Shown here: piece by piece, positions 38,991 to 60,653 of the stretch | How positions within the stretch are numbered: position 1 is the first letter of the stretch | Layout of the letters: each line of letters starts with the position of its first letter | Source of the DNA: Candidatus Marinamargulisbacteria bacterium SCGC AG-410-N11 | Lineage (GTDB): Bacteria > Margulisbacteria > Marinamargulisbacteria > GCA-2716485 > AG-410-N11 | DNA: 64,000 nt | Assembly (NCBI GenBank): GCA_003265895.1 | Contig: QFBS01000001.1 | Location: 1 to 64,000 of the forward strand | Direction of reading: 5' to 3' | Made by a program: the position numbers and the translations under genes | The notes under the pieces: generated by a model | Databases searched by the model: none | What the model saw: only the letters and a program-made list of their open reading frames with translations | What the model was told of the DNA's origin: nothing

Positions 38991-39443
38991 TTAATTATCA
39001 GAAGATGTAGTGATACTTTTCCAATGAAATTTAGAATGATGATGATAGGTATGAATCAATAAAATCACAAAGGAAAGAAATAATAAAAAAATCGAATTCA
39101 AAAATATAAACCCTCCAAAACATATAAATAATAAAATAGAATATCTTAGAAAACAATGATACCTATAAGTAAAAAATAATCCTGTAAAATAAAATAAATA
39201 TGTTGTAATAATAGTCGCATAAACTATCCCATAAATATTAAAATATTTGTAAAAAATAAAATTCAAAGCCACACTAACCGGAATCAATACAACAAAACAA
39301 ATATTAAGCTTTTTTACTTGATGTAGACCAGATGCAATAGAAAAACTAATATGGTAATGAAACAGTGGAAACACCATAATAATTAAATATTTTGCAAGGG
39401 GAACACTTAACGTATACAGAGGTATAAGAGTATGAATAATCAA
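38991..39443 (-). pseudogene. wzx: C-terminal fragment of Wzx flippase, out of frame
   Basis: This 150-residue open frame, opened only by a TTG, is a run of about four to five hydrophobic helices. It continues the flippase encoded just upstream: with one G fewer in the G9 tract (39480-39488) the upstream frame runs directly into it (LSQWGGLLAGISIYW...). It is not likely to be translated on its own. See the 39463-40383 entry. Confidence 0.8.
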
Positions 39444-39462
39444 ATCAATAGACCAATAAATA

Positions 39463-40383
39463 CTAATACCGGCTAAAAGCCCCCCCCCATTGGCTCAAAA
39501 GTAGCAATGTATTAATCAAGGCATGGTTTGACTGCTTACGATCAAAATTCATAAATAGTTTAGGAGTATAGGACCCAATAAATGCCATTCCTAATGTAAT
39601 CACAACTGTAACAAACTGCAACGCCGTCGAATAATAAGCTAGATATTCAGAACTAAAATAATGTTGAATAAAAAATCGATCTAAACTAAATATAAACTTA
39701 AACAGATAGTTGCAAAACAATAAAACAAATCCAACAGAAAGTATACGTTTAATAATAAGAGAATCTACAGAAAATTTAGTTAAAGAAAAATTAACATATA
39801 GCTTTTTTCGTAACAAATAAAACAAACCTATACAAATAATTAATATAATCAAGCTACCTAATGAATATCCAATGTAATATCCTTTTATTGATGAAATCAA
39901 ACAAAAAATAGCTAATAGACTAAAGAATAACAAAGAACGAATCACATTAAAGACACCACTATATTGAAGAATATTTTGACCTTTAAAAATAAACGTTATT
40001 AATTGAACAAAAGACGACATAATAAAAAAAGGGATAAAACAATAGAAAGCAAACGATTGAAACATTGTATCTGAAAAAAAATAACCCATCATGAAAAAAA
40101 AAATAGAAATAATAAAGGTAAATAGCACCGTTAGCCAAAAAATCGTAATAAAAAAACTTTCATTTTGTTTAGTATCTTGACCCACTGTATAAGTAGGCCC
40201 TAGCCGTTCTAAAGAAGTTCTTAAAAAAGCTAAAGGAATTTCAACAATAATATACACTGCGGACACAAAGACAAACACCCCTATAACCTCTGGAGGAACA
40301 ATTCGTTTTAAATAAATTCCAATAGAAAAGGAAAAGAAAAAGTTCCAAAAATGAGACCCCGCATATATAAGATTACTTCTCAT
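39463..40383 (-). CDS. wzx: Wzx-like polysaccharide flippase, truncated at a G9 tract
   Basis: Translocates undecaprenyl-linked repeat units across the inner membrane. The open frame has about nine hydrophobic helices of the MATE/Wzx type (RSNLIYAGSHFWNFFFSF at the start). The ATG at 40383 is preferred to an upstream in-frame ATG at 40464 because it overlaps the upstream gene by only 11 bp and begins the first helix. The frame ends after LSQWGGAFSRY, immediately past a run of nine G on the coding strand. Removing one G (or adding two) joins it to the frame at 38991-39443 and gives about 463 residues, the normal Wzx length. The gene as written is OFF; a phase-variable tract or a homopolymer sequencing error explain this equally well. 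Confidence 0.75.
   Translation of the reverse strand: MRSNLIYAGSHFWNFFFSFSIGIYLKRIVPPEVIGVFVFVSAVYIIVEIPLAFLRTSLERLGPTYTVGQDTKQNESFFITIFWLTVLFTFIISIFFFMMGYFFSDTMFQSFAFYCFIPFFIMSSFVQLITFIFKGQNILQYSGVFNVIRSLLFFSLLAIFCLISSIKGYYIGYSLGSLIILIICIGLFYLLRKKLYVNFSLTKFSVDSLIIKRILSVGFVLLFCNYLFKFIFSLDRFFIQHYFSSEYLAYYSTALQFVTVVITLGMAFIGSYTPKLFMNFDRKQSNHALINTLLLLSQWGGAFSRY
39480..39488 (-). repeat. G9 homopolymer in wzx (frame-breaking)
   Basis: Nine C on the plus strand (G9 on the coding strand). Eight G keep the wzx frame open, nine close it after 4 codons. G/C homopolymers of eight or more are very rare in DNA as AT-rich as this. Confidence 0.9.
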
Positions 40384-41893
40384 GAATATATGTTTTCCAA
40401 TGTTGAAAATAAGAATTCCCATCATTGATAAGACAATAAGAAATGTAATCAAGATTTTGATCATTTAGTATAGTTTTGTTAGACAAATGTAACCTCACCT
40501 TACATCGCTCGTGTTCTGACAAAAATGAAATTGGAACAATTTTGTAATTAAGTAAATAATTAACAAATTTATACAAATTATCTTTATTTTCTTTCTGAAA
40601 CTCTTTAATAACCTGTGTATTTTCAATCAAATCAAAATACTCTTGCTTATCTTTAAATTCATAACAGATTTTCTTATTATGATACGGAGATAATCCCCCT
40701 GAAAATAGAGGGATATCATTATATAATAATTCCGTCCCAATAGTCCCATTATAAACAAATGCACCATTTAAATAAGGAAACAACTCATAACTTGAAAAAG
40801 GGTTCGATGAATCAACAAATAAGATGTTGTCCTGTTTTTTAAATAGTTTATTAAAAATATCCATCGCCCCAACATTGGATTTCATCCATCTATATTCAGC
40901 AGGATGAACACGAATAATAAGTAACTTGTTCGTATTATTAACAAAATAATCAATAGTTTGAACAAACCAGTCATAATTAGACTGAAACAATATATCACAA
41001 CCAATATAACTATTATCCCAAAAAACATTAGGAAAAATTGCAAACACATTATGACGATAAGCATCTATTTTATTATTCAATTGAATAATAAATTCCTCGT
41101 TTCTATTATTTTTACTTACCCCTTTTAATATGTTTTTTAAATCCATAGATTTACCTTCAAATCTAGACTTTAAATATGTCCTACAAAAAGAGTAGCTTTC
41201 ATCTAAATCTATTTGATGATTAAATTGATTAAAAAAATTATTATCATAAATCCCTGATGCAACAATATTATTTTTACAAAAAACAACCCCATTAGTCTTA
41301 AAGCCACCAAAAGAATAAGTTATCGACATTTTTTTTTGATTCAAAAAAAACTGATAAAAAGGTCCCCAAGTAGAATATATACCATGCGAAGTACATATCC
41401 GAGCAGGATTTTCTTTTTGAAATAAAGATTTTGCTATAAAAATAGAAACCAATGAATTTTGAACAAACATCTTTAAAACATCTGAGTAGTCTCTATGTTC
41501 TAGAGCAAACTTATCTATGGATCTATAATACCTATTAATAGAAGAGTTTATATAAGGATAAAGATCAATAGAATCCATTTTATATAAATCAGATTCTATC
41601 ATATTTTTTGAGATATTCAGGATCCTCTTAAAATCTTCTACATCAACAAACTCACTATAAAATCTTATATATGATAACCTTCTTAAAAAAAAAGTCGATA
41701 CTCGCTTCCTTATTGCTTCATCAAAACAAGTAATGATACCATCAACTTGAACGGTATCATGATGCAACAATACATTATCATCAACAAGCACAATCGCATG
41801 TTTACCCTGTTTCCTTAAATTAAGACACATCATAGACTCTGTAAACATGATATCCAAAGAATGCCCACGTACTAAATTAAATACACAAAACAC
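40373..41893 (-). CDS. Capsule-type glycosyltransferase (possible nonulosonic acid transferase)
   Basis: A 506-residue protein with the pattern of capsule polysaccharide transferases: NLVRGHSLDIMFTESMMCLN near the start, HGIYSTWGPFYQF near 167, IIRVHPAEYRW near 325, and YNGTIGTELLYNDIPLFSGG near 380. GTG at 41893 opens this frame but has no ribosome site, and the frame stays open upstream to 42025, directly after the ptmA stop, reading LRHVKRLASLIKFIFK and onward, which looks like a real N-terminus. A T10 tract at 42018-42009 lies there; with T11 or T8 an ATG at 42045 or 42042 inside ptmA would be in frame. As sequenced, the start is doubtful. Last gene but one of the nonulosonic acid operon, so it may be that transferase. 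Confidence 0.7.
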   Translation of the reverse strand: MFCVFNLVRGHSLDIMFTESMMCLNLRKQGKHAIVLVDDNVLLHHDTVQVDGIITCFDEAIRKRVSTFFLRRLSYIRFYSEFVDVEDFKRILNISKNMIESDLYKMDSIDLYPYINSSINRYYRSIDKFALEHRDYSDVLKMFVQNSLVSIFIAKSLFQKENPARICTSHGIYSTWGPFYQFFLNQKKMSITYSFGGFKTNGVVFCKNNIVASGIYDNNFFNQFNHQIDLDESYSFCRTYLKSRFEGKSMDLKNILKGVSKNNRNEEFIIQLNNKIDAYRHNVFAIFPNVFWDNSYIGCDILFQSNYDWFVQTIDYFVNNTNKLLIIRVHPAEYRWMKSNVGAMDIFNKLFKKQDNILFVDSSNPFSSYELFPYLNGAFVYNGTIGTELLYNDIPLFSGGLSPYHNKKICYEFKDKQEYFDLIENTQVIKEFQKENKDNLYKFVNYLLNYKIVPISFLSEHERCKVRLHLSNKTILNDQNLDYISYCLINDGNSYFQHWKTYIHEK

Positions 41894-42025: not shown

Positions 42026-42781
42026 CTATAAACTCCACCCATCATCAACAATAATATTCTGGCCATTTACAAATTCACTTAATTCAGAAAGCAAGTAAAT
42101 AACTGTACCTGTAATATCTTTAGTATTGAGCATACCTTTATTGTTACAATCTTGTCTATAATTTTTTAAAAATAACTCTGGTTGTTTATCTAATAGCCCA
42201 CCTAAACTTACTGCGTTTACTCTAATATTATTTCCTTTATAATATTTTGATAGATAACGGACCATGTTAATTATTCCAGCTTTTATTGCACTATATTCAA
42301 TAGGAGATGTCATGTCTGTATTTTCGTAATGGTTAAATTTAGGTGCCTGTAAACCTTGAATAGATGCTATGTGTATAAGATTTCCTTTTTTTTGCGTTTT
42401 AAATAATTCAAGTATTTGTTGTGAAAATAATATAGCACCACCTAATTGATTAGATAAGTCTTCTTTTAAGTATTTTTCAGATAGATTTTCAAATTTAGTT
42501 CCCCATTGCTTTGATCTGGGGTAAGCAGAATGAATAGATGCATCAATAAATTTGAATTTCTTTGATACTAACTTAAAAAATGATTTTATTGAGTCTAAAG
42601 ATGATGTGTCTAGTTTGAAATAATAAGCTTTCGAAGGGTTTTCTTTTTCAATTTCAATTCCAATTTTTTCATTAATATCACCAATAATAACAGTTCCATT
42701 TTGTTTAATTATTTCTTGAGCCAAAGCTTTTCCCAATAAGCCACATCCACCTGTTATAATAATTGTTTTATTTTGAAGCAT
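42026..42781 (-). CDS. ptmA: Short-chain dehydrogenase, PtmA-like
   Basis: A 251-residue SDR protein: NAD motif TGGCGLLGKALAQ at 10-22, IHIASIQG with the catalytic serine, the YSAIKAGIINMVRYL segment with the YxxxK pair near 182, and RVNAVSLGG near 205. It overlaps the upstream cytidylyltransferase gene by 14 bp. PtmA homologues accompany PtmE, PtmF and LegF in Campylobacter flagellin legionaminic acid loci, where they serve precursor synthesis; the exact reaction is not settled. Gene order here (neuA, then ptmA) matches that theme. Confidence 0.8.
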   Translation of the reverse strand: MLQNKTIIITGGCGLLGKALAQEIIKQNGTVIIGDINEKIGIEIEKENPSKAYYFKLDTSSLDSIKSFFKLVSKKFKFIDASIHSAYPRSKQWGTKFENLSEKYLKEDLSNQLGGAILFSQQILELFKTQKKGNLIHIASIQGLQAPKFNHYENTDMTSPIEYSAIKAGIINMVRYLSKYYKGNNIRVNAVSLGGLLDKQPELFLKNYRQDCNNKGMLNTKDITGTVIYLLSELSEFVNGQNIIVDDGWSL

Positions 42782-43466
42782 TTAATTTTTCCTTTAATAT
42801 AAATTCAGCAAAACTAAAATCTATTTCATCGTCGATATCAAGAGATCTTAATTTTGGAATTAAAACTCCTTTGACTCGGCCTTCAAATACTGAGTTAAAT
42901 TTTAAAATTGCTTGCGGACGAGAAGCATATGCCACTGTAGTTAAGTCATATACTTTTGGACAATCTTGTCGTCTTGTCAAATCACTTTTTATTACTGTAG
43001 ATAAATAATCGTTTGTAGACTTTACCATATTAAAGTAAGGACTTCGATTTGCTTCAGTCATGGTAACTACAAAATCTGTACTAAGTGTTAATTTATTTAA
43101 TACATTTGTTATGTCTATGTCATTTCTAAATGGTGAAGTTGCTGGTAGTGAAATAAATCTATCAAATTTTATTTTTTGTTTTTCTAAATATTCTATAGCA
43201 TGTTTCCAAGATAAATATTCTGCAGAAGTATCAGTGGCTAATTCTGGAGGGCGACTTATAATATGAATCTGATCATTTTTATATGTTTCTGCAAGTGTCA
43301 TAATTTCTTTATCATCAGTTGATATAAATATTTTAGAAATTAAAGAGTTTTCTAAAGCACTATCTATTGAATAGCAAATTAGTGGTTTGTTATTGAGTAG
43401 CTTGATATTTTTTTTCTTTAACCCTTTAGAACCACTTCTAGCAAAAATAAATGCAAATGTTTTCAT
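42768..43466 (-). CDS. CMP-nonulosonate cytidylyltransferase (LegF/PtmB/NeuA-like)
   Basis: Activates the free nonulosonic acid with CTP. The 232-residue protein begins with the family motif FIFARSGSKGLKKKNIK (residues 5-21), followed by FISTDDKEI, ISLPATSPFRND near 105 and LDIDDEIDFSFAE near the C-terminus. The NeuA-type nucleotide-binding residues are intact. It lies in the leftward operon between a PtmF-like oxidoreductase and ptmA. The substrate is most likely CMP-legionaminic acid or a formyl analogue rather than sialic acid, because LegB and LegC homologues are present upstream. Confidence 0.87.
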   Translation of the reverse strand: MKTFAFIFARSGSKGLKKKNIKLLNNKPLICYSIDSALENSLISKIFISTDDKEIMTLAETYKNDQIHIISRPPELATDTSAEYLSWKHAIEYLEKQKIKFDRFISLPATSPFRNDIDITNVLNKLTLSTDFVVTMTEANRSPYFNMVKSTNDYLSTVIKSDLTRRQDCPKVYDLTTVAYASRPQAILKFNSVFEGRVKGVLIPKLRSLDIDDEIDFSFAEFILKEKLNASK

Positions 43467-43476
43467 AAAGTATATT

Positions 43477-44445
43477 TTAAGAATTAATTTGGTTTTTGTA
43501 AATTTTATTTATCATTTTAAGCACATCTATTGCTGATGATAGGGTGTTTTCTTTTACTAAATTATTATTTATTGCTTCAAAAAAATTTTCTAATTGTTTT
43601 TCAAATATAATGTTTCTATCAAATTTATTTCTAGATGTTATAGGCTTTTTTTTGTTTTCATACCAAACAACTTGCTGGTTGATTAAATCTAACATTAAAA
43701 CACCTTTGCAGGTTAAAACTTCACAGATTCTTGAATTTTTGCGTGAACAAAAATTCATGAATAATGAAATTGGATAATTTTTATTGCTAGTCATTAGTAC
43801 TCTTACCGAGTCTTCAGTGTCAATATCTAGAGTATTTGAATTATAAATAATACTTGCCATGTTTTTTGGTATGCCAAAAAGCCATTGTATGTAGTCAATT
43901 TCATGACTAAGTTCAAGTATTACACCACCGCCTAACGATTTTTTTGCACTTACAGTATTTTTATAATTTTGATCGGGTCTCCAATTAGGTAAATATGAAC
44001 TTGCTGTAATAGAAACATCTAAAATTGTTCCAATATCATATGTATCTAAATACTGTTTAAATTTTATTAAATTGGGGTCATTTCTCAGAACATATCCTAC
44101 CTTACATATTAAATTATTTTTTTTTATTATTTTCTTTAACTTATCTATGTTTTCTAGATTATGAGATAGTGGTTTTTCAATTAATAAATGTATATTGTGT
44201 GATGCTAAAAAAATGGCTTGTTCAATATGAAATGTTGCAGGTGATGCAATTATTGCAGCTTGAATATTAAGTTTGATTACATCTTCAAGAGAATATACAA
44301 TTTTACAATTAATATTTTTATCTTCTTTTTTTTTATTAGATCTAACAATGATTGGTTCTATATTAGGGAATTTATTTTTTATAACTGTAAAATGTCGTTG
44401 CCCTATACTTCCAAACCCTATGATCGCAATTTTTTTAATACTCAT
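43477..44445 (-). CDS. Gfo/Idh/MocA oxidoreductase, PtmF-like
   Basis: A 322-residue NAD(P) oxidoreductase: GFGSIGQRHF at 10-19, ALIIASPATFH-like segment (here AAIIASPATFHIEQA), HLLIEKPLSHN near 93 and GGGVILELSHEIDYIQWLFG near 170, the last with the family histidine. Position between a PtmE-like nucleotidyltransferase (11-bp spacers) and a CMP-sugar synthetase suggests the PtmF role in supplying an amino-sugar precursor for GDP-linked legionaminic acid synthesis. The actual substrate is unproven. Confidence 0.75.
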   Translation of the reverse strand: MSIKKIAIIGFGSIGQRHFTVIKNKFPNIEPIIVRSNKKKEDKNINCKIVYSLEDVIKLNIQAAIIASPATFHIEQAIFLASHNIHLLIEKPLSHNLENIDKLKKIIKKNNLICKVGYVLRNDPNLIKFKQYLDTYDIGTILDVSITASSYLPNWRPDQNYKNTVSAKKSLGGGVILELSHEIDYIQWLFGIPKNMASIIYNSNTLDIDTEDSVRVLMTSNKNYPISLFMNFCSRKNSRICEVLTCKGVLMLDLINQQVVWYENKKKPITSRNKFDRNIIFEKQLENFFEAINNNLVKENTLSSAIDVLKMINKIYKNQINS

Positions 44446-45501
44446 TTATTTAATTAAATCTAATGCCCTTTCATATTCTTTCCATTGCCCAAAATCGATA
44501 AATTCTTTTTCATTAATAAAAAAACAATGGACAGGCAAATTATTTTCAATCAGTTTCTCGATTAAATGAGTCATATGAAATACTTTATCCGTTTCTATAT
44601 AATCGAGAACTTTTTTATTTGCTATATAAACCCCTGTATTAATAGGCATACTTAATTCTGGCTTTTCTTCGATAGACGTTATAGCGCCACCATTTTTATA
44701 GTTTATTTTTCCATATGGAATTTGGTGATGTTGAATTGAACAAACGACTGTAAGTAATGTCTTTTTTTCTTGATGTTGATGAATAATATCAGATAAGTTT
44801 GTTTTAGCAATGCAATCACAATTTGAAATTATAAATTCATTAGGTAATTTATCTTCTAAAAGCTTAATACTTCCAGCTGTTCCCATAAAAAAAGGCTCGA
44901 TTGCAAAATTAATAGAATAGCTTTTATCTAAACTATCAAAATAAGAGATCATTAAGTTAGATTTGTAATTTAATGTTAGAAAATAGTTATCTATCCCATA
45001 TTCCGTAAAATAATCAATAACATGATTAATCATTGGCTTTCCGTTTAATGGAATTAGTGGTTTAGGAAATACATCGGAAATAGGTTTCATCCGGGTTCCT
45101 TTTCCGCCGCCCATGATTACTACTGGTAAAGATAGATTTTTTTTTGTTTTCTGTGAGATATTGTGTTCATTATAATAGCTGTAATATGAAACAATTTTTT
45201 TATTATTTAAAATAGGTAAGCCTATGATTTTATTTTCTTTACACATTTCAATTGCTTTTTCTTTTGTAAACTCATCTTCATTTAAATAGATAAAGCTTTT
45301 ATTAAAAATGCCTTCTATAGATGTTTCTAAAGAAGCATCTTTTAGTAAAGCTCTTCTTATATCTCCATCTGTTAATGTACCTAAAAAGTCAGTATTTTCA
45401 TTGACAACTAAAATTATTTTCTCAGCAGTAGAGTCCAGAGTTTTTAACGCTTGTTTAATAGTTGTATTGTTTTTAATAAGGTTTTGGATATTGTTTTTCA
45501 T
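44446..45501 (-). CDS. ptmE: CBS-domain nucleotidyltransferase (PtmE-like, GlcN-1-P guanylyltransferase)
   Basis: Predicted to make GDP-glucosamine from glucosamine 1-phosphate and GTP, the step that starts the GDP-linked legionaminic acid route in Campylobacter. Two CBS motifs occupy the first ~115 residues (LGTLTDGDIRRALL; KENKIIGLPILNNKKIVS), then a nucleotidyltransferase domain: VVIMGGGKGTRMKPISDVFPKPLIP, FFMGTAGSIKLL, ISNCDCIA. The start at 45501 is chosen because it forms an ATGA overlap with the PIG-L gene and follows AAAGGAAAT; an upstream in-frame ATG at 45555 would overlap by 54 bp more. About 351 residues. Confidence 0.83.
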   Translation of the reverse strand: MKNNIQNLIKNNTTIKQALKTLDSTAEKIILVVNENTDFLGTLTDGDIRRALLKDASLETSIEGIFNKSFIYLNEDEFTKEKAIEMCKENKIIGLPILNNKKIVSYYSYYNEHNISQKTKKNLSLPVVIMGGGKGTRMKPISDVFPKPLIPLNGKPMINHVIDYFTEYGIDNYFLTLNYKSNLMISYFDSLDKSYSINFAIEPFFMGTAGSIKLLEDKLPNEFIISNCDCIAKTNLSDIIHQHQEKKTLLTVVCSIQHHQIPYGKINYKNGGAITSIEEKPELSMPINTGVYIANKKVLDYIETDKVFHMTHLIEKLIENNLPVHCFFINEKEFIDFGQWKEYERALDLIK

Positions 45502-46169
45502 GAATTTATTTCCTTTAATAACATAAAGCTTTCTGCATAATTTACTCCGGCACAAGCACCTCTAACTTTTGCTAATGCTTTGATTGTTTCAATACTTCTA
45601 GGAAAAGGATGTGGCGAAACTTCACTTTCATAAATAGCCATCGCGTTACATTTTTGCTCTATATAGTTACTAATATCAACAAATACATTCGGTACAAAAG
45701 CGTTTTCTTTTGTAGCTAAAGCAAAATCTGTTTCACTTAATGTTTCCATCATTAATATTTTCTTTATAAATGGATAGCGAAATACTTTTGTACAAGCATA
45801 AATTGCATCAAAGCAAATTCTATGATCTGAATGTACATCACTCTTAAATGGCAAATAAATAACAGTTGGTTTTACTTTGTTGATTATAGCTGAAATTCTT
45901 GAAATTAATTTGTTCATCGAGTATTGGTCACATTCTGTCGTCTTTAAATTAAGTTGATGAACAGAGTCAAATGAATATAAATTAGAGATAGTTATAATTT
46001 CTTTATTTCTTTTTTCTATGACTTCATCTGAGTATCCTTGATCTTTAAAAAGGTGCGTTGCAATTAACCAGTGAATTTTATCTCCATCATTTTTATGTTT
46101 TAATAAAGTACCTCCGCAACCTAATGTTTCATCATCGGGGTGGATAGCGAATACTAAAATATTTTTCAT
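45498..46169 (-). CDS. PIG-L/LmbE deacetylase
   Basis: Zinc-dependent N-deacetylase of the PIG-L family, 223 residues. The metal-binding motif HPDDE is at 10-14 and HSDH at 113-116, both intact. Such enzymes remove acetyl from GlcNAc-type sugars. It is coupled to a formyltransferase gene (4-bp overlap at 46166-46169) and to ptmE. I infer that it clears an N-acetyl group, either on a precursor or on the finished nonulosonic acid, so that the adjoining formyltransferase can put on a formyl group. The substrate is unproven. Confidence 0.8.
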   Translation of the reverse strand: MKNILVFAIHPDDETLGCGGTLLKHKNDGDKIHWLIATHLFKDQGYSDEVIEKRNKEIITISNLYSFDSVHQLNLKTTECDQYSMNKLISRISAIINKVKPTVIYLPFKSDVHSDHRICFDAIYACTKVFRYPFIKKILMMETLSETDFALATKENAFVPNVFVDISNYIEQKCNAMAIYESEVSPHPFPRSIETIKALAKVRGACAGVNYAESFMLLKEINS

Positions 46170-47056
46170 AAATAATCTCCTATTTTGGGAAGCGTTTCAA
46201 ATTCATGTTTTAAAATTTCTATAGAATGTGTACCTGATTTTACAATAAATGTATTATTTTTTGAATTTACATCTAAAACTTTTCCTGGCTCAATATTTTT
46301 TTTGTTATTTTTAACCTCTTTAACTTTCCAAATTTTGATTTCTTTATTTAAAAGAACTATATGAGCACCGACATATGGTGTAGTTAGGCCTCTAACTAAA
46401 TTATATATAATATCTGAATGCATCCGAAAGTCTATTTGGCCATCTCTCATTCCACGTTTTCGCCAATAATTTGATTTTGAATGGTTTTGAGGAATTCTAT
46501 CAAAAGTTTTATTTTTTAATTTTGGTAAAAAATATGTTATTTGATTTAATGCTGTTTGGGTCACTTTCTCATATAATGAATCTGCATTGTCACTATATAT
46601 AATGTGAATTTTTTCCTGAGATAAAATATCGCCAGAATCAGCCCCTTGGTCCATAAAAAAGAAAGTAGATGCAGTTTCTTTTAAACCTAGAACTAACGCC
46701 CATATTAGTGGATGCCTGCCTCTATTTTGTGGTAAAGCGGCAGGGTGATATCCTATGATACCTATTTTCGGAATATCTAAAAGATCTTTTTTGATTATTT
46801 CAGACCATCCAAAACAAAAAATAATATCTGGAGATTTTTCTTTAACCCAATTTAAAATATAAGAGTCATTGACTGATGTATTTGAAAAAATAAACGGGAT
46901 ATTATTTTTTTTACATAAAGGCGTTAGATCCTGAAAGTCTGCGTTAAACAGCGATTCTTTTTTTGTAATTACACCAACAATGTTTGCATTTAGCTTACAT
47001 AATAATGCTAGCTTTTTGTAAGAAGATTTCACTGTGCCAATAAAAATTATTTTCAT
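46166..47056 (-). CDS. Formyltransferase family protein, atypical active site
   Basis: A 296-residue protein of the methionyl-tRNA/sugar N-formyltransferase family. The Rossmann-like N-terminal domain ends in the motif GYHPAALPQNRGRHP near 102-116; the conserved His is at 104 and the Asp at 140 (QGADSGDIL), but the usual catalytic Asn of the N-x-H-D triad is Gly at 102. Folate binding is expected from the QNRGRHP segment. An OB-like C-terminal domain (RGLTTPYVGAHIV, then EIKIWKVKEV) follows. It lies between neuC and PIG-L with 4-bp overlaps on both sides. The missing Asn may mean a changed substrate or mechanism, or a distinct subfamily. Confidence 0.75.
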   Translation of the reverse strand: MKIIFIGTVKSSYKKLALLCKLNANIVGVITKKESLFNADFQDLTPLCKKNNIPFIFSNTSVNDSYILNWVKEKSPDIIFCFGWSEIIKKDLLDIPKIGIIGYHPAALPQNRGRHPLIWALVLGLKETASTFFFMDQGADSGDILSQEKIHIIYSDNADSLYEKVTQTALNQITYFLPKLKNKTFDRIPQNHSKSNYWRKRGMRDGQIDFRMHSDIIYNLVRGLTTPYVGAHIVLLNKEIKIWKVKEVKNNKKNIEPGKVLDVNSKNNTFIVKSGTHSIEILKHEFETLPKIGDYL

Positions 47057-48216
47057 TTCAAATTATAAAATTTCTTTTTTATTATATTTTTTGAATTAAT
47101 ATTTATTTTTGAAATCAAGTTTATAATTTCGTCACATGTATTTGGTTTTTCATATGGATTCGATACGGATTGTAAATTTTTTTGAAATTCTTTCGAGTAA
47201 AGTTTTTGAATCGCAGTGTCGATATCTTTTTCTGTGGGGATACATTGTATAACACTTTTTGCTTGAATTCGTCCTTTTTGTCTATCTCCTATGTTAATAG
47301 TACCTATTTTAAATGAGGGAACTTCTATTATACCGCTAGAACTATTACCTATTACCCCATCAATAAACTGCAAACAACTAAAATAGTTTACTTGTCCAAG
47401 AGAAAATGACGCATAAGAATTTTTATTTTTACTTGTGAATGAGTCTATCATTTCGTTTATAACTCTTCCATTAGTATCAGCGTTGCTTTTTGTAAAAATT
47501 AATTGCGTTGATTTTAATTTAGATAAAGAGTTTAGTAAATTTTTAAATTGATTTTTTGCAGTATTATTTTCTAAAGTGACAGGATGAAATGTTATAAGAA
47601 TGTTGTTTTTATTAAATAAAAAGCCTAGCTCTTTTTCTATTTGTTGCTTTGACAACAAACTTAAATGTTTTATATTGTCTACACCTAAACTACCAACATT
47701 AAAAACGCGTTGAGGATTTTCACCAAGTTGTACAACTCTTTTTTTATAATTTTCGGTTGATGTAAAATGATAATGACTCATTTTTGTTATAGAATGTCTA
47801 ATGGGTTCGTCTATTAATCCTTCAGTAGCTTCTCCCCCATGAAGATGAATAATTGGAATTCTTGAAATCATTGCAGCAGATGCCGCAGAAAAAATTTCAA
47901 AACGATCTCCTAATAAAACGATTATATCTGGTTTTAATTCTTCAAATGCTTCTGCAAATGAAATTTGAGCTAATCCCATTGACTTTGAAATGCCAACAGA
48001 TGTATCTGAAGAAAGTAAAATTTCAATTTTTTTATCAATTTTTAAATCATGAGACTCAATTTCTTTGTAGGTTAAGCCAAATTCGGTAGATAAATGCATA
48101 CCCGTAGCAATTAATTGAAGATCTAAAGATTTATCAGAGTTAATTTTACTAATTAATCGAGATAAAATACCAAATTCAGCTCTAGTTCCTGTTACAACAC
48201 AAATCTTTTTGTTCAA
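47053..48216 (-). CDS. Hydrolysing UDP/GDP-HexNAc 2-epimerase (NeuC/LegG-like)
   Basis: Epimerises C2 of a diacylated amino sugar nucleotide and hydrolyses the nucleotide, giving the 6-carbon sugar for condensation with PEP. The 387-residue protein starts with CVVTGTRAEFGIL (5-17), has IVLLGDRFEIFSAASAAMISRIPIIHLHGGE (in part) near 90, HYHFTSTENYKKR, ITFHPVTLENNT near 204, GNSSSGIIEVP near 290. These match NeuC/LegG rather than the non-hydrolysing WecB. It overlaps neuB by 4 bp and the formyltransferase by 4 bp. Expected substrate is the 2,4-diamino-2,4,6-trideoxyhexose from the LegB/LegC pathway. Confidence 0.87.
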   Translation of the reverse strand: MNKKICVVTGTRAEFGILSRLISKINSDKSLDLQLIATGMHLSTEFGLTYKEIESHDLKIDKKIEILLSSDTSVGISKSMGLAQISFAEAFEELKPDIIVLLGDRFEIFSAASAAMISRIPIIHLHGGEATEGLIDEPIRHSITKMSHYHFTSTENYKKRVVQLGENPQRVFNVGSLGVDNIKHLSLLSKQQIEKELGFLFNKNNILITFHPVTLENNTAKNQFKNLLNSLSKLKSTQLIFTKSNADTNGRVINEMIDSFTSKNKNSYASFSLGQVNYFSCLQFIDGVIGNSSSGIIEVPSFKIGTINIGDRQKGRIQAKSVIQCIPTEKDIDTAIQKLYSKEFQKNLQSVSNPYEKPNTCDEIINLISKININSKNIIKKKFYNLK

Positions 48217-49226
48217 ATTAAATTACCTTCTTCATAGTTTTTTTCGGCTTTTTTTCCAAGGATATTATCCCATTCTTTAGGAGATATCCCATTTGCTGGT
48301 CTTTTACAAATTAAATTATGGATAGTGAAAGTTTCTCCTTTTTGAATATTTTCTTTAGCTAAAATACTTTTTCTTACAATTTCAATATTTTTTTGTTCAC
48401 TAAAAGATGGTTCTTTTACACCATTTCCTTTAGCCTTTTCCACAATTCTGATTTGATCGACCATAGCTTTTAATTCTTGTGGATCTAACGACGCTTTATG
48501 ATCCGGGCCAAGCAATGATTTATCAAGAGTGAAATGCTTCTCTATGATAGTTGCTCCCATAGCAACAGCTGCAATTGGAATCGTTATCCCAGGTGTATGA
48601 TCGGAATAACCAACAGGAACTTCAAATTTATTTTGTATTGTTGCCATAGCGTTTAAATTTACATCTTCAAAAGGACATGGGTACTCTGTTGTGCAATGTA
48701 GTAATGACAAGTTTGATTTATCTAGACCCGAATTAAGCAAAGTTGTAACTCCAAATTCGATATCATCCATTGTACACATTCCCGTAGAAAGTATAGTCGG
48801 TTTATTGATAGCCGCAATTTTTCTTAAATAAGGAACATGTAAGATTTCACCAGATGGAATTTTTAAAATAGGTAAATTTAAACGCTCTAAATAAGTTACA
48901 CTATCACAATCAAAAGGAGATGATAAAAACAAAATCTCTTTTTGTTTGCAGTAATTTATTAATTCCATATGCATTTCATGAGTTAATTCTAATTTTTTTA
49001 GCATGTCAAATTGAGATTCATCTGAATTGGTAGTTTCTTTTTGATAAGTTGCTTTTTTAGCATTTTTTGTGGCTAATGTTTCTGATTTAAAAGTTTGAAA
49101 TTTCACAGCTTCAGCACCTGCGCTTTTTGCAACATCTACTAATTGTTTGGCTAAAGACAATTCTCCATTGTGGTTTACTCCTGCTTCAGCAATAATAAAT
49201 GTTTTATCCAATTTCAAATCTATCAC
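48213..49226 (-). CDS. Nonulosonic acid synthase (NeuB/LegI-like)
   Basis: Condenses the 2,4-diacylamido-trideoxy-mannose-type sugar with PEP to the nine-carbon acid. The 337-residue protein has the NeuB family sequence: IIAEAGVNHNGELSLAKQL (11-29), AVKFQTFKSE, LFLSSPFDCDSV, LKIPSGEI, ILSTGM, LLHCTTEYPCP, GYSDHTPG, ATIIEKHFTLD, and a C-terminal antifreeze-like SAF domain (NIQKGETFTIHNLICKRP). The frame opens with GTG at 49226, overlapping the second formyltransferase by 23 bp; a TTG at 49217 is an alternative start. Confidence 0.9.
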   Translation of the reverse strand: MIDLKLDKTFIIAEAGVNHNGELSLAKQLVDVAKSAGAEAVKFQTFKSETLATKNAKKATYQKETTNSDESQFDMLKKLELTHEMHMELINYCKQKEILFLSSPFDCDSVTYLERLNLPILKIPSGEILHVPYLRKIAAINKPTILSTGMCTMDDIEFGVTTLLNSGLDKSNLSLLHCTTEYPCPFEDVNLNAMATIQNKFEVPVGYSDHTPGITIPIAAVAMGATIIEKHFTLDKSLLGPDHKASLDPQELKAMVDQIRIVEKAKGNGVKEPSFSEQKNIEIVRKSILAKENIQKGETFTIHNLICKRPANGISPKEWDNILGKKAEKNYEEGNLI

Positions 49227-50100
49227 CTACTTTAAATTTTCCTACATATTCATATTCAACAACTTTGACAAAAGTATCGGCTGTTTTAACTAAAAATCCA
49301 GACTCATCTTTAAATAAAATTGCTCCAATAATTCCTTTGTACACAGTGGAATTATTTATTTCTAGTACTTTATTGATTTTCATTTCTTTATTATTTAAAA
49401 AAGCTCTTGATTGTGGCCCAGGTGAGCAAATAGCCCTTACAAAATTATATAGTTGTCGACTAGTTTGATTCCAGTTAATATTTTCATCGCCAATAACTCT
49501 GGTTGAGCAATAAGAACCAATAGGGTCAATTTCATTTTGCTTTTTTATTGTAACTTTTCCTTGTTTTAATAAAGTTAAAGATTCAAAAAGGATATTTGCA
49601 CATTCAACATGCGCAATTTTAAGTAATGATGCATAAGTATCATTATTAGATATACTAAAACATTTTTGAAGAATTATATCGCCTGTGTCTATTCCTTCAT
49701 CAATAAAATGAACTGTAATTCCAAAATCCTTTTCATCATTTATTAAGACCCAGTTTAATATGTTTCTTCCTCGATAAAATGGCAGTTTACCTGCATGACA
49801 ATTTATACATTTCAATGGAGGGAGGTTTATTATTCTTTTTTTGAAAATTTGATTAAAGGACATTGAAACAAACAAATCACAATTAAATATTTTTATTTTA
49901 TTAATAAATTCATCAGAATTAATATCTTTATGTTTTAAGTAAGGTATATTATATTCTTCAGAAAATTGCTTTAAAATTTGATCATTTGTATCATACCTTA
50001 CACAGATAAATTTAATTGTTAAGTCTTTATCTTTAATAATTTTTTGAAAAGCATTATGACTCCACGGCCCATCTGCAAAATAGCCTATGCTTAATTTCAT
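49204..50100 (-). CDS. Sugar N-formyltransferase with intact N-H-D site
   Basis: A 298-residue formyltransferase. The catalytic triad of the family is complete: Asn100, His102 (CINCHAGKLPFYRGRN) and Asp138 (DEGIDTGDI). Its place between the LegC-like aminotransferase (4-bp overlap) and NeuB is where other loci have the N-acetyltransferase LegH. I infer that it formylates the C4 amino group made by LegC, so that the product is an N7-formyl nonulosonic acid (hexose C4 becomes C7). This depends on 10-formyl-tetrahydrofolate. A C-terminal domain (EMKINKVLEI, GAILFKDESGF) resembles the OB part. Confidence 0.8.
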   Translation of the reverse strand: MKLSIGYFADGPWSHNAFQKIIKDKDLTIKFICVRYDTNDQILKQFSEEYNIPYLKHKDINSDEFINKIKIFNCDLFVSMSFNQIFKKRIINLPPLKCINCHAGKLPFYRGRNILNWVLINDEKDFGITVHFIDEGIDTGDIILQKCFSISNNDTYASLLKIAHVECANILFESLTLLKQGKVTIKKQNEIDPIGSYCSTRVIGDENINWNQTSRQLYNFVRAICSPGPQSRAFLNNKEMKINKVLEINNSTVYKGIIGAILFKDESGFLVKTADTFVKVVEYEYVGKFKVGDRFEIG

Positions 50101-51248
50101 ATTATCACCGAACTAGGAATATTCACTAGAGTATCTGAAGCAATAGTTGAATTTGATAAATCATCACAATAAGCTTTTTTGTACATTGATAGTGTATTCA
50201 TTAAACACCAACATGGCCTAGTCATTACATTAAGGTTATTGGACATATTTAAAAATGTATCACGGTTACTTTTATTTTTAAATGTCAGAGTATTCAACCA
50301 ATAATTTGATTTACAAGATTCAGGCTCATCAAAAAATAAAAAACTGTTACTTATTAACTTGTTTTTATATGTTTGAGCTAACATTCTTTTAGATTTTATA
50401 AAGCCATCTAAAGTTTCCATTTGAGCACAACCTAAAGCAGCATTAAGATTCGGCAATCGATAATTATAGCCTATTTCATCATGAACATAGTCCCACTTAT
50501 GAGGAGTTTTAGCCGTTGTTGTAATATGCTTAGCTTTTTTAGCTAATTCTTTATCGTTGGTGACAATCATTCCCCCCCCACCAGACGTAATGGTTTTATT
50601 GCCATTAAAACTAAATGTGCCAAATAAACCAAATGTACCCGTATGCTGGTTTTTGTAAGTACTTCCTAAAGATTCAGCGGCATCTTCAATTACGGGGATG
50701 TCAAACTTATCGCATAATGAAATTATTTGGTCAATTTTTGTAGGATGACCAAACGTATGCATCGGCAAGCACGCAGAGATAATTCGTTTTGTATGAATAT
50801 TGATTAAGCCTTTGGTTGTTTTTTTTGTGGAATGTTTTAAGAAATATTCTAATTTTTCTGGGCAGAGCCCAAGTGTTTCTTTATTTATATCTACAAACGT
50901 TGGGAATGCGTTACAATAAGAAACAGCATTACTTGTGGCTACAAACGTTAGAGGTTGCGTAATTACTTCTGTATTGTCAGAAACACCAGATAGTAATAAC
51001 GAGATGTGTATTGCTGCGGTGCCGTTAACTGTTGCAATAGCGTATTTTGCCCCTGTGTAATCAGCGACCATTTTTTCAAATTGATCAACATACTTGCCTA
51101 CAGAAGATACAAAAGTTGAATCAATACAATCAAGAACATATTTTTTCTCATTTCCATTAAAACGTGGTTCATGTAGCGGAATAAATTCCTCTGTTTTATA
51201 TTGGTCTTTAATTATTTTAATAATATTTTCAAATTCACATTTTTGCAT
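50097..51248 (-). CDS. legC: LegC-like PLP aminotransferase
   Basis: Transfers an amino group to C4 of the 4-keto-6-deoxy HexNAc nucleotide. The 383-residue DegT-family protein has EPRFNGNEKKYVLDCIDSTFVSSVG (in part), VNGTAAIHISL, VIEDAAESLGS with the PLP aspartate and the PLP lysine in FGTFSFNGNKTITSGGGG. This agrees with the LegC family. A G8 run encodes the glycine stretch right after the catalytic lysine (50572-50579). It overlaps legB by 14 bp and the formyltransferase by 4 bp. Confidence 0.88.
   Translation of the reverse strand: MQKCEFENIIKIIKDQYKTEEFIPLHEPRFNGNEKKYVLDCIDSTFVSSVGKYVDQFEKMVADYTGAKYAIATVNGTAAIHISLLLSGVSDNTEVITQPLTFVATSNAVSYCNAFPTFVDINKETLGLCPEKLEYFLKHSTKKTTKGLINIHTKRIISACLPMHTFGHPTKIDQIISLCDKFDIPVIEDAAESLGSTYKNQHTGTFGLFGTFSFNGNKTITSGGGGMIVTNDKELAKKAKHITTTAKTPHKWDYVHDEIGYNYRLPNLNAALGCAQMETLDGFIKSKRMLAQTYKNKLISNSFLFFDEPESCKSNYWLNTLTFKNKSNRDTFLNMSNNLNVMTRPCWCLMNTLSMYKKAYCDDLSNSTIASDTLVNIPSSVII
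50572..50579 (-). repeat. G8 homopolymer in legC
   Basis: Eight C on the plus strand (G8 on the coding strand) encode part of the conserved glycine stretch after the PLP lysine. The frame is intact as written; a one-base change would truncate the enzyme. Confidence 0.85.
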
Positions 51249-52425
51249 CTAAATATTTTCCTGTTTCTTTATGTTGAAAATCTGGGATTAATGTAAAGAA
51301 TTCATTTAAAATATCTTGTTTCGACCATGAAGTGCTTTTTTTGAGAGATTGAATTGTTTTTTCAAAGTGGTTTAATTTCTCAGAATCAAATTCAAGTTTA
51401 TTTTTAATAATTCCTAAATTTGTAAATCTCTCCATATCTAATAGTTCTTGGTCAGTGAAAAATTCTTCAAAATCTTTTTCACCTGTGGTATCACTTTTAG
51501 TAAATAAACATGGCCATTTTTTTTGTTGAGGCAAAGAGTGAATAAGTTCACGAGCTTCATTTTCTGATTCACATAAAAACGGCTCATACCCTAAGTTTCT
51601 TAGATATTTAACAGCAATATCAGCGAATGAAATAAGATGAAGTTCTTCACTAAGTTTAGGAAAGAAGATGTCTCTGTTTTCGCCAAAAACACAAGACATC
51701 AAGCATAGTTCTCCACTTTCTTGTGGTGTAACAAAATAGCGTTTAATATCGTTTGGAGCAACAATCGGTTGTCGTTTTTGGATCCGTTGGTTAAACCCAT
51801 GAAGTAATGAACCATCGCTGAAGGCTACATTTGCAAATCGAGCCATCGATATAGAAATACGATTAGATTGTTGCATGGCAAACATTTCCATAATGCGTTT
51901 GCTTGCACCCATCATATTTACTGGGTTTGCAGCTTTATCTGTAGATACACAAAAATATTTTTTTGTTTTATTTTCAATGGATTGTTGAATCGTTTTGTTT
52001 GTATTAAAAATATTAGTGTTAATTAATCTCATTAAGGTAAAAGGATCTTTTTCACTTCTAACATGTTTTAATGCAGATAAATTGAGGACGTAATCATATT
52101 TTCCAAAGTTGGAAATGAAAGCATCATATTCTAATGATCCAATATCTAAAGAAAACGTTTTAAAAACTCCATCAATGTACCCATAGCTACTTCTAATATC
52201 ACGAACTAATTCAACCATATTATTTTCAGAAATATCTACAACATGAAGTGTTTTAGGATTTCGTTTGAAAATTTCTTTTGTAACAGATTGCCCTATTGAG
52301 CCAGCGCCTCCAATAACAAGAAAAGAAGAACTAGATATAATGTCTTTTAATAAATATTCATAATTCGAAATATCTTCTGAAAATAATTCTTTTGAACGAT
52401 TGATTAATTTGATATCAAAAAGCAT
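51235..52425 (-). CDS. legB: Nucleotide-sugar 4,6-dehydratase (LegB/CapD-like, soluble)
   Basis: Makes the 4-keto-6-deoxy HexNAc nucleotide for the nonulosonic acid route. The 396-residue protein has the NAD motif IGGAGSIGQSVT near 38-49, STDKAANPVNMMGASKR near 159, and the PNDIKRYFVTPQESGEL segment. It lacks the membrane part of the paralogue at 10075 and has about 35 extra N-terminal residues. Its ATG shares one base with the Wzz stop (TAATG). Context (legC, neuC, neuB) supports the LegB role; whether the nucleotide is UDP or GDP is not shown, although ptmE points to GDP. Confidence 0.85.
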   Translation of the reverse strand: MLFDIKLINRSKELFSEDISNYEYLLKDIISSSSFLVIGGAGSIGQSVTKEIFKRNPKTLHVVDISENNMVELVRDIRSSYGYIDGVFKTFSLDIGSLEYDAFISNFGKYDYVLNLSALKHVRSEKDPFTLMRLINTNIFNTNKTIQQSIENKTKKYFCVSTDKAANPVNMMGASKRIMEMFAMQQSNRISISMARFANVAFSDGSLLHGFNQRIQKRQPIVAPNDIKRYFVTPQESGELCLMSCVFGENRDIFFPKLSEELHLISFADIAVKYLRNLGYEPFLCESENEARELIHSLPQQKKWPCLFTKSDTTGEKDFEEFFTDQELLDMERFTNLGIIKNKLEFDSEKLNHFEKTIQSLKKSTSWSKQDILNEFFTLIPDFQHKETGKYLDAKM

Positions 52426-53132
52426 TATTCTTTTGAAGAGAAATGATATTTGAAAAGTACAAAAGTAAAGGAAAAGAATAGCCCAACAAGAAAGCTGAAT
52501 ACAATATTTAATTTTAAATTTGGCTTGAAAAACCCTAATGGTTTGTTAGGGGGGTCTATTAACGTCAGTATATTTTTTGAAACACTGAATTCCAAATTTT
52601 CATTAAATTTAGTAATTTGATCAATGTAGTCTTGCAAAACGGATTGAGCTAAATGTTTGTTTGAATTAAAGTAAGACAATTTGAAAAGCCCATCTTTAGT
52701 ATAAACAAAAGAAAAATTTCGATGTAATTTCAAAGTATTAATTAGATAATTTGAAATTAATATTTCATCATCTGTAATTTTATTTTCTAAGATGGCCTTA
52801 TCAATTTTATTTTTAAAAAAGGTTAAATAATTTTTGCTAACTTCTATTTGGATTAAGTTACTTTTCAGTACATTTTTAATCAAAGACTCAATATTTGAGT
52901 TAGATTGAATTCCGATTAAAGAGGTATAAGAAGCGAGTGGGTTTTTATTCTGGTTTGGTGATGAAATAAAAAAACTAGATGTAGATTTATATTGTTTTGG
53001 AGATACATAAAAATAAACGATAGACATTGAAATACAAAATAAAGTTATAGATAATATTAAAAGTTTACTATCCCAAATTATTTTGAATAATTTAATAAGG
53101 TCCAATTCATCATTTGAGGAATGTGTATTCAT
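52425..53132 (-). CDS. wzz: Wzz-type chain length determinant
   Basis: Inner-membrane polysaccharide co-polymerase that sets chain length. The 235-residue protein has two transmembrane helices, at about 25-46 and 206-228, enclosing a periplasmic region with predicted coiled character, and a Pro-rich motif DPPNKPLGFFKPN just before the second helix, the family signature. It has no cytoplasmic tyrosine kinase domain. It is first in the long nonulosonic acid operon, with a promoter placed so that the transcript would start at the ATG; no Shine-Dalgarno is visible. Confidence 0.85.
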   Translation of the reverse strand: MNTHSSNDELDLIKLFKIIWDSKLLILSITLFCISMSIVYFYVSPKQYKSTSSFFISSPNQNKNPLASYTSLIGIQSNSNIESLIKNVLKSNLIQIEVSKNYLTFFKNKIDKAILENKITDDEILISNYLINTLKLHRNFSFVYTKDGLFKLSYFNSNKHLAQSVLQDYIDQITKFNENLEFSVSKNILTLIDPPNKPLGFFKPNLKLNIVFSFLVGLFFSFTFVLFKYHFSSKE

Positions 53133-54021: not shown

Positions 54022-54969
54022 CTAAGAAAAGTATTTAAGGGTTAAAATTAATCCTTCTTCAACGGAAATCTTATTTTCATATCTTAAAATTTGTTTTGAA
54101 AGACTAATATCAGCTAAACTATCTTTAACATCACCAGGGCGTACAGACTTATAATCAGGTTTGATATTTAATTTTAGTAAATCATTCAAATATTTAACTA
54201 GTAAATTTATACTAATAGTTTGACCATTTCCAATATTAAATGAGCGACCAAAAGCTTTATTAGAAGCATTTAAGAAGCTACTAATATTTGCTTGAACAAC
54301 ATTATCAATATAAGTGAAATCACGAGTTTGATTGCCATCACCAAATATAATTGGCGATTTTTTTTGAAGTAACAAAGAAATAAATTTAGGAATGACAGCT
54401 GCATATTGTGAATGAGGGTTTTGTCTGGGACCAAAAACATTAAAATATCTGAGACCTATAGTTGGTAATCCATAAACATCATTAAATAACTTTGCATAAC
54501 ATTCATTAGTATATTTTGTAAGCGCATAGGGTGATTTTGGGTTTGGCATCATTTCTTCCTTTTTAGGAAGCGTAGGCGTATCTCCATATACTGATGAGGA
54601 AGATGCATAAATAAACCTCTTAACTTGTTGGTCTCGAGCAGCTATAAGTAAATTTAAAGTTCCTGTAATATTATTATCATTATATAACGATGGTTCTTTG
54701 AGAGATCGAGGAACAGATCCCAAGGCGGCTTGATGAGATACATAATCAATATTAGAGCATGCCCGATGACAAAGCTTTTGATCTCTAATATCCCCTTCAA
54801 TGAAAGTGAAGTTATATTTATATTTATGGTCACTGATAAACGATAAATTTTCGTTTGTACTAGACGAAAAGTTATCTAAACCTGTAACAAGATATCCTTT
54901 ATTTAATAGAGCATTAACTAAATGAGATCCAATAAACCCCGAAGCTCCAGTTACTAAAAAACGATACAA
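54022..54969 (-). CDS. UDP-GlcNAc(A) 4-epimerase (WbpP/TviC-like)
   Basis: Extended SDR epimerase, 315 residues: NAD motif GASGFIGSHLV (8-18), DNFSSS, EGDIRD, HQAALGSVPRS, YASSSSVYGD, YALTKYTNE with the YxxxK pair, LRYFNVFGPRQNP, and GDGNQTRDFTYIDN. The GSVPRS and RQNPHSQYAAVIPKF segments are typical of WbpP/TviC, which act on UDP-GlcNAc or UDP-GlcNAcA. It lies 23 bp downstream of the WbpA-like dehydrogenase, the partner seen in Vi antigen and O6 loci, so UDP-GalNAcA may be a product. Confidence 0.87.
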   Translation of the reverse strand: MYRFLVTGASGFIGSHLVNALLNKGYLVTGLDNFSSSTNENLSFISDHKYKYNFTFIEGDIRDQKLCHRACSNIDYVSHQAALGSVPRSLKEPSLYNDNNITGTLNLLIAARDQQVKRFIYASSSSVYGDTPTLPKKEEMMPNPKSPYALTKYTNECYAKLFNDVYGLPTIGLRYFNVFGPRQNPHSQYAAVIPKFISLLLQKKSPIIFGDGNQTRDFTYIDNVVQANISSFLNASNKAFGRSFNIGNGQTISINLLVKYLNDLLKLNIKPDYKSVRPGDVKDSLADISLSKQILRYENKISVEEGLILTLKYFS

Positions 54970-54992
54970 AATATCTCCTAATTGATTTTATT

Positions 54993-56342
54993 TTATATTT
55001 TTATTATATGATCTTTAGATATGCCTTTAGTCATATTACGAGTATCAATAATTAACTTAGAATGATTAATTATTAAATCCTTATCAAGATAATCATGATT
55101 CGTAACAATCACACAACAGTCATAACGACTTAAACTTGATTGATCTAAAGACACACTTTTAAATGATTGTTTAGCTAACTCTAAAGAATCATTAAACTTA
55201 TCATGATAATCAATATTAGCACCTAAGCTTAATAACTCCTGAATAATATCCAATGCAGGAGACTCTCTCATATCATCGATATTAGGTTTATAAGCAATCC
55301 CAATAATTAAAATCTTAGAACCGTTAACACTTTTTTCATGTTGATTTAGTCCATGAATAACTTTATTAACAACATGATGAGGCATCGAACTATTAATATC
55401 ACTGGCTAAATTAATAAATCTAGCATCATAATTTAATGTTTTTAATTTCCAAGATAAATAAAATGGATCAATTGGAATACAATGTCCGCCTAATCCTGGT
55501 CCTGGATAAAAAGGCATAAAGCCAAAGGGTTTGGTCGCTGCCGCTTCAATAACTTCCCACACATCGACATCTAATTTATCACACATTAAAGCAAGTTCAT
55601 TCGCAAGACCAATATTGATAGATCGAAACGTATTTTCTAATAACTTCACCATTTCAGCTGCTTTTGTAGAAGAAACAGGGATAACTTGATCAATAGCTTG
55701 AGAATATAATAGTTCAGAAACTTGAGTACATGCTTCAGTAACGCCGCCAATAACTTTAGGTGTATTTTTTATTTTATAGGTTTCATTACCTGGATCGACT
55801 CGTTCAGGAGAGAATGCAAGAAATATATCCGTTCCAATAGTAAACTCAGATAGCTCAGGAACAATAATTTCTTCTGTAGTACCTGGGTAGGTTGTACTTT
55901 CTAATACAATAAGTTGTCCTTTTTTGGCATATTGTTTAATGGTTTGAATAGAATTAACAACATAAGAAAGGTCGGGATCTTTTGTTTTACTGAGTGGCGT
56001 TGGTACACAAATAATAAGGACATCCATCGTTCTTATATTAGAAAAATCAGTCGTAGCACGAAACAGTTTTTGGTCTACACAGTCGGCCACTTCTTGATCG
56101 GATATATCAGGAATATACGATTTTTGTTGATTAATTAAACTAGCTTTTTGGGCATTTTTTTCAAAGCCCGTAACATTAAATCCATTTTTTGAAAATTCGA
56201 TACCTAATGGTAAACCGACATAACCTAAACCAATAATCCCAATATGTAATGTTTTTGTTTCAATTTTTTCTTTAAACAATGTTATATTCATTTGATTTTC
56301 ATCTTGCCCTTTAAAATTAATTGTTGTTGATTCTGTATTCAT
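54993..56342 (-). CDS. wbpA: UDP-N-acetylglucosamine 6-dehydrogenase (WbpA/TviB-like)
   Basis: Oxidises UDP-GlcNAc to UDP-GlcNAcA, entry to the uronic acid sugars made by WbpB-D and WbpE. The 449 residues include an N-terminal 32-residue extension before the NAD motif GIIGLGYVGLPLGIEF, then CVPTPLSKTKDPD near 118, VLESTTYPGTTEE, FSPERVDPGN, AEMVKLLENTFRSINIGLANE (in part), the catalytic cysteine in GPGLGGHCIPIDP and IGIAYKPNIDDMRESP. The motif set identifies the WbpA/TviB subgroup rather than Ugd. Confidence 0.9.
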   Translation of the reverse strand: MNTESTTINFKGQDENQMNITLFKEKIETKTLHIGIIGLGYVGLPLGIEFSKNGFNVTGFEKNAQKASLINQQKSYIPDISDQEVADCVDQKLFRATTDFSNIRTMDVLIICVPTPLSKTKDPDLSYVVNSIQTIKQYAKKGQLIVLESTTYPGTTEEIIVPELSEFTIGTDIFLAFSPERVDPGNETYKIKNTPKVIGGVTEACTQVSELLYSQAIDQVIPVSSTKAAEMVKLLENTFRSINIGLANELALMCDKLDVDVWEVIEAAATKPFGFMPFYPGPGLGGHCIPIDPFYLSWKLKTLNYDARFINLASDINSSMPHHVVNKVIHGLNQHEKSVNGSKILIIGIAYKPNIDDMRESPALDIIQELLSLGANIDYHDKFNDSLELAKQSFKSVSLDQSSLSRYDCCVIVTNHDYLDKDLIINHSKLIIDTRNMTKGISKDHIIKI

Positions 56343-56437
56343 AATAACATCCTTATTGTAAGAGTTGGAGAAGTTTTAACCCCTTTTAAGTTTTATAATA
56401 ATATCAAACCATTTAAGATATAACAAAATTAAAAGTA

Positions 56438-57757: not shown

Positions 57758-57789
57758 AATTTAAAACAAAACTGAAACGTTTTCATTAT

Positions 57790-60576: not shown

Positions 60577-60616
60577 AAAAGCTCTCGGAGACCCCCCCCC
60601 CTATTCGAGGGCTTTT
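60577..60616 (+). ncRNA. Hairpin with C10 loop: terminator or small RNA
   Basis: AAAAGCTCTCG (60577-60587) pairs with CGAGGGCTTTT (60606-60616): 11 base pairs with one wobble. The 18-base loop contains ten consecutive C (60592-60601). On the minus strand it would end the secretin operon as an intrinsic terminator (stem then TTTT). On the plus strand a TTTACA/TATAAT promoter begins just upstream, so a roughly 45-base RNA made almost entirely of this hairpin would result. Such a C-rich loop could pair with G-runs in mRNA. Terminator function is likely; the small RNA is a proposal. Confidence 0.5.
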
Positions 60617-60653
60617 CCTTGAAATATAGTTGAAAAATTTAAGAATGTATTTT

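Follow-up and report, generated by a model that had tools for sequence, protein, structure and literature searches.

A Wzx-type flippase gene interrupted at a nine-G tract in a polysaccharide locus: a candidate slippage OFF allele

Introduction

Is a flippase gene that is interrupted, as assembled, at a run of nine G residues the OFF state of a slippage-prone gene, or does the interruption reflect an error of the assembly? The question is raised by the last gene of a polysaccharide locus in the 64,000-nucleotide stretch of DNA that was analysed here as a whole (the window). The original prediction had seen in the tract a candidate ON/OFF switch of a Wzx flippase. Here we describe the break, the identity of the gene and its setting, and compare the tract with the G/C runs of the source genome and its relatives (Table 1).

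Table 1. Coordinates of the flippase gene, its tract and the neighbouring genes in the window
Feature	Coordinates	Strand	Evidence
wzx-type flippase gene, 5' part; 306 codons as assembled, early stop just past the tract	39463..40383	minus	ORF, translation, PF01943
wzx-type flippase gene, 3' part; 162 residues and stop, +1 frame, lacking a good start of its own	38991..39479	minus	translation, codon usage, profile
G9 mononucleotide tract, coding strand	39480..39488	minus	direct reading
Upstream gene, 506 aa, without a hit in Pfam or NCBIfam; overlaps the flippase start with its stop	40373..41893	minus	
Nonulosonate (legionaminic-type) pathway and Wzz, all open	42026..53132	minus	Pfam, NCBIfam
UDP-sugar epimerase, two UDP-sugar dehydrogenases and Wza-like Poly_export/SLBB gene, same locus	54022..60213	minus	Pfam

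The tract and the break in the reading frame

Direct reading confirmed the predicted nine G's on the minus strand. The G+C content of the window is 29.7%, and there are three G/C runs of at least 8 in it: a C8 at 50572, which lies in frame inside a gene for a LegC-type aminotransferase, the C9 at the flippase (as read on the forward strand) and a C10 at 60592. The tract had rightly been called conspicuous, a third-order Markov model predicting 0.03 runs of at least 9 per 64 kb; that the G9 arose by chance in the AT-rich DNA of the window is unlikely.

The upstream frame starts with the ATG at 40383 (the start given by the ORF tool, 40464, runs into the upstream gene), and reads through SQWGGAFSRY to a stop at 39465-39463. 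The early stop described in the original prediction is thus present: 301 residues lead up to the tract and are followed by AFSRY and the stop codon. From 39494 on, the downstream frame stays open until its stop at 38991. Counted from stop to stop, the two open frames share just 32 bases (39463-39494), among them all nine G's of the tract, hence the shift must fall in these 32 bases. Codon log-odds, for which 25 other genes of the window served as training set, had a mean of 0.165 in the upstream frame before the tract (vs. -0.30 and -0.29 in the other two frames), and 0.178 in the +1 frame after it (vs. -0.29 and -0.23), the signal after the tract being cleaner over the first 200 bases than at the extreme 3' end. 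When the two frames are joined, as had been proposed, the read-through product is one flippase of 463 residues.

Two of the features by which contingency loci are recognized can be seen here: a hypermutable tract (more than 7 G) lies within the reading frame, and a change of its length would move the gene between an open and a closed frame, the frames meeting at the tract only. The tract encodes Trp-Gly-Gly where a hydrophobic segment begins. GGG makes up 12.9% of the Gly codons, and of the 59 Gly-Gly pairs in the window's training genes 4 are written GGG-GGG. The tract can be accounted for by ordinary codons, Trp-Gly-Gly with GGG, and this counts against the reading as a slippage allele.

A single flippase gene in two frames

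The assignment to the Wzx flippases held up for the 5' part, which scored 31.9 bits against PF01943 (Polysacc_synt; cut-off 28.2). The Pfam model stops short of the 3' part. Both parts were compared with a profile made from 39 Wzx-like ORFs, for which PF01943 relatives had been gathered within the class and in nonulosonate clusters outside it, the query being left out. The two parts matched this profile in collinear order, the 5' part in columns 14-291 and the 3' part in columns 304-411. Because the profile E-values come from a three-sequence search with proteins of biased composition, the order of the matches weighs more than the values. A simple Kyte-Doolittle scan of the read-through protein gave approximately 12 hydropathy peaks, seven before the junction and five after it, which agrees with the 12-14 transmembrane segments of Wzx proteins; with five of the roughly 12 peaks past the break, the truncated product lacks the last third of the protein. 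The two parts belong to one gene of about 463 codons, for a lipid-linked oligosaccharide flippase of the Wzx/MOP family; it is cut after 306, with the last third out of frame.

Two other views of the gene were considered. We reject the view that these are two adjacent genes: the downstream part lacks a convincing start, its codon usage sets in at the tract, and in the Wzx profile that the 5' part matches it aligns with the C-terminal columns. An old pseudogene is not favoured either, both halves being open with coding-like codon usage.

In the comparison set the class is represented by 27 species, among which the source genome is the sole member of its family. A search of 74 genomes of the phylum with the full protein gave no close homologue, and there was none in genome_contigs or viral_contigs either. 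The comparison with homologues that the original prediction had suggested could be made in part: PF01943 relatives, distant ones only, were aligned, and the tract was found in none of them. Near the site these distant members have no G/C run longer than 5, and at the tract itself they carry unrelated hydrophobic residues.

This comparison bears on the notion that the frame is restored at expression, some full-length flippase being made by slippage of RNA polymerase or the ribosome on the G run. In its favour, the run covers the whole shift site and the remaining gene looks conserved, but the site is common to no homologue, and G runs are poorer sites of transcriptional slippage than A/T runs. 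We regard this explanation as very improbable.

The polysaccharide locus

The genes from 60213 to 38991 are all on one strand, with the flippase gene as the last one, and no visible break was found in the other genes of this run. The nonulosonate segment encodes a PtmA-like SDR, a cytidylyltransferase, a GFO/IDH/MocA protein, a CBS-NTP transferase, a PIG-L protein, two formyltransferases, NeuC, NeuB, LegC, a dehydratase and Wzz. A Wzy/ligase-like gene is close by (33213-34649). The setting in a polysaccharide locus that is typical of Wzx is thus given, genes for Wzz, Wza and nucleotide sugars being present. Besides the flippase gene, no PF01943 gene was found in the available sequence of the source genome, which is 56% complete.

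A terminator-like hairpin at 60577-60617, with the C10 run at 60592 as its loop, lies between a gene for a 339-aa secretin and the Wza-like exporter gene. In G001 (L237), a genome from another family of the order, the 41-base hairpin recurs with 95% identity and the same gene context. Two further genomes have similar hairpins, with C8 (L238) and C6 (L239), 3' of the secretin gene; the C8 hairpin also adjoins a Poly_export gene. The same stem, with loops of G7 to G11, is found near other genes elsewhere in the class. The length of the run in the hairpin loop differs between species.

G/C tracts in the source genome and in the order

The source genome has eight G/C runs of at least 9 in 1.5 Mb, the longest being 13; this is above what the base composition predicts, and most of these runs are intergenic. 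Two of the 13 runs of at least 8 are in intact genes (the aminotransferase gene at 50572 and a gene for a coiled-coil protein of 1600 residues), one interrupts the flippase gene, and 10 are intergenic or uncertain. Together with six other genomes of the same order, there are approximately 84 G/C tracts of at least 8, and none but the flippase tract splits a gene; nearly all other in-gene tracts of this length in the seven genomes keep the frame. The share of the six other genomes, approximately 46 runs of at least 8 across open frames, is an approximate count, since for some of them the ORF lies antisense to the actual gene or the run falls in a stretch by which the ORF extends beyond the coding part. 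Four breaks that were flagged automatically turned out, on inspection by hand, to be gene starts, gene ends or junctions and overlaps of genes. An overlap scan of 219 kb of the source genome found no further frame breaks at long runs.

Contingency loci are further recognized by a repertoire of tracts at frame breaks in the genome or lineage, and such a repertoire was not seen here. The break is exceptional, and the tract pattern is not that of a lineage in which poly-G contingency loci are in use. We reject lineage-wide poly-G switching, the tracts being in frame in the seven genomes. Genes for MutS and MutL are present and open.

Some of the other tracts deserve mention on their own account. 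A second in-gene G9 (L036:4094-4102; G000:C14:23093-23101) lies in frame in the proline-rich linker of the coiled-coil protein, which has at least 1600 residues and a weak IQ (calmodulin-binding-like) motif; this protein is possibly directed at eukaryotes. Intergenic runs include a G11 (L033:3483-3493), a G9 (L034:4663-4671) and a G13 (L035:4264-4276). The intergenic G9 is about 11 bases ahead of an ATG, i.e. at Shine-Dalgarno distance, and its length could affect translation. Another genome of the class (G025, 69% complete) has 135 G/C runs of at least 8 in approximately 1.0 Mb, many more than are found in its relatives; it has no MutS_V match, and one run of 9 lies within an open PF01943 gene (L146). 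In a further genome (G003, L227:2498-2530) a G8 stands, in frame, right behind the ATG of a long gene with a signal peptide, a position typical of phase-variable genes.

Origin of the break

We consider slippage on the tract the most likely cause of the break. To the reading that the frame of a Wzx/MOP flippase was disrupted by a one-unit change in a slippage-prone G tract, and that the gene is a real, recent and in principle reversible OFF allele, we assign a probability of about one half; the allele is known from one consensus sequence of one draft genome. The assembled length would then be that of the sampled cells, and strand slippage during replication would have produced a recent OFF allele that could, in principle, revert. 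Cells in the OFF state would make the repeat unit, this Wzx protein would not flip it, and the polysaccharide would be absent unless another flippase serves. A review (PMC4235727) counts G tracts of more than 7 among the hypermutable ones, with rates of 1e-5 to 1e-2 per division. A real slippage allele is favoured because such tracts were assembled in frame nearly everywhere else. The intact MutS and MutL, which lower slippage, count against it.

Long single-base runs are a classic place for length errors, and it is possible, though in our estimate distinctly less probable, that in the cells the tract is in frame and the flippase intact, the metagenome-type draft consensus being wrong by one unit. 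The assembly is a draft of 52 contigs, and every other gene of the cluster that was checked is open. Against such an error speaks that the other in-gene tracts of 8 to 10 are in frame in the source and the six related drafts, which indicates that assemblies of tracts of at least 8 are usually right and errors are rare; the lack of a second homopolymer frame break in the 219 kb points the same way.

To lose Wzx while the remaining pathway is intact should be costly, and this expectation also speaks for a length error. The original prediction had warned that such a loss can be harmful, in agreement with work cited in PMC13111663, in which flippase deletions that accumulate O-antigen intermediates led to shape defects and lysis through sequestration of undecaprenyl phosphate. 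The expected cost argues against a fixed OFF state, and thereby for a transient or mixed state, for a second flippase in the part that the 56%-complete genome lacks, or for an error in the assembled length.

A selected ON/OFF phase variation, in which phage or host pressure on the polysaccharide maintains a standing mixture of tract lengths, appears rather unlikely to us. It is true that the length of the tract and the class of the gene match known contingency loci (PMC4235727, PMC4965091), and that the flippase gene is the last of its run, so that a switch there would have no polar effect on the pathway. However, the break is the sole one of its kind, the in-gene tracts of the order keep the frame, unlike a phase-variable repertoire, mismatch repair is intact, and the tract is common to no homologue. 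Our literature searches turned up phase variation of genes for glycosyltransferases, capsule and LOS, and no Wzx switched by poly-G. It would be an improbable arrangement to have a selected poly-G switch on Wzx itself, with mismatch repair intact and no other such switches, in which OFF cells would make the units and not export them.

If the cells do carry both lengths, a legionaminic-type surface polysaccharide could be dropped at a step that is thought toxic to block, and the locus would offer a direct test of how bacteria cope with lipid-linked intermediates that are trapped. If the allele is fixed, or the assembly is wrong, the case advises caution in inferring switches from single draft genomes. 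The flippase break is a legitimate candidate for a switch of a familiar kind, but it is a single case in one draft genome and may just as well go back to a chance mutation or to an error of the assembly.

Comparison with known systems

It is instructive to compare the flippase with the O-unit flippases of the Wzx type (PF01943, MOP superfamily). It resembles them in its whole-length profile match, in its approximately 12 hydrophobic segments and in the Wzx/Wzy-type locus with Wzz and Wza, and it differs from them in that the gene is split as assembled. As to the break, siaD of Neisseria meningitidis (Hammerschmidt 1996, as listed in PMC6249986) is a case of repeat-tract slippage in a gene of a capsule pathway, as proposed here; there the target is a polysialyltransferase and the switching was demonstrated, whereas here the target is a flippase and the switching putative.

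Surface-glycan genes are the usual targets of such tracts, and the AT-rich Campylobacter jejuni NCTC11168 has 29 poly-G/C tracts of at least 7 (PMC4965091). C. jejuni has no mismatch repair, an absence that was tied to very high mutation rates of the tracts (PMC4235727). In comparison with the C. jejuni contingency loci, the present locus has one broken gene and not a repertoire, the target is a flippase, mismatch repair is present, and switching is putative. What it shares with them (PMC4965091) is the AT-rich genome, the G/C run of at least 7 in a surface-glycan gene, and a frame that shifts with the length of the run.
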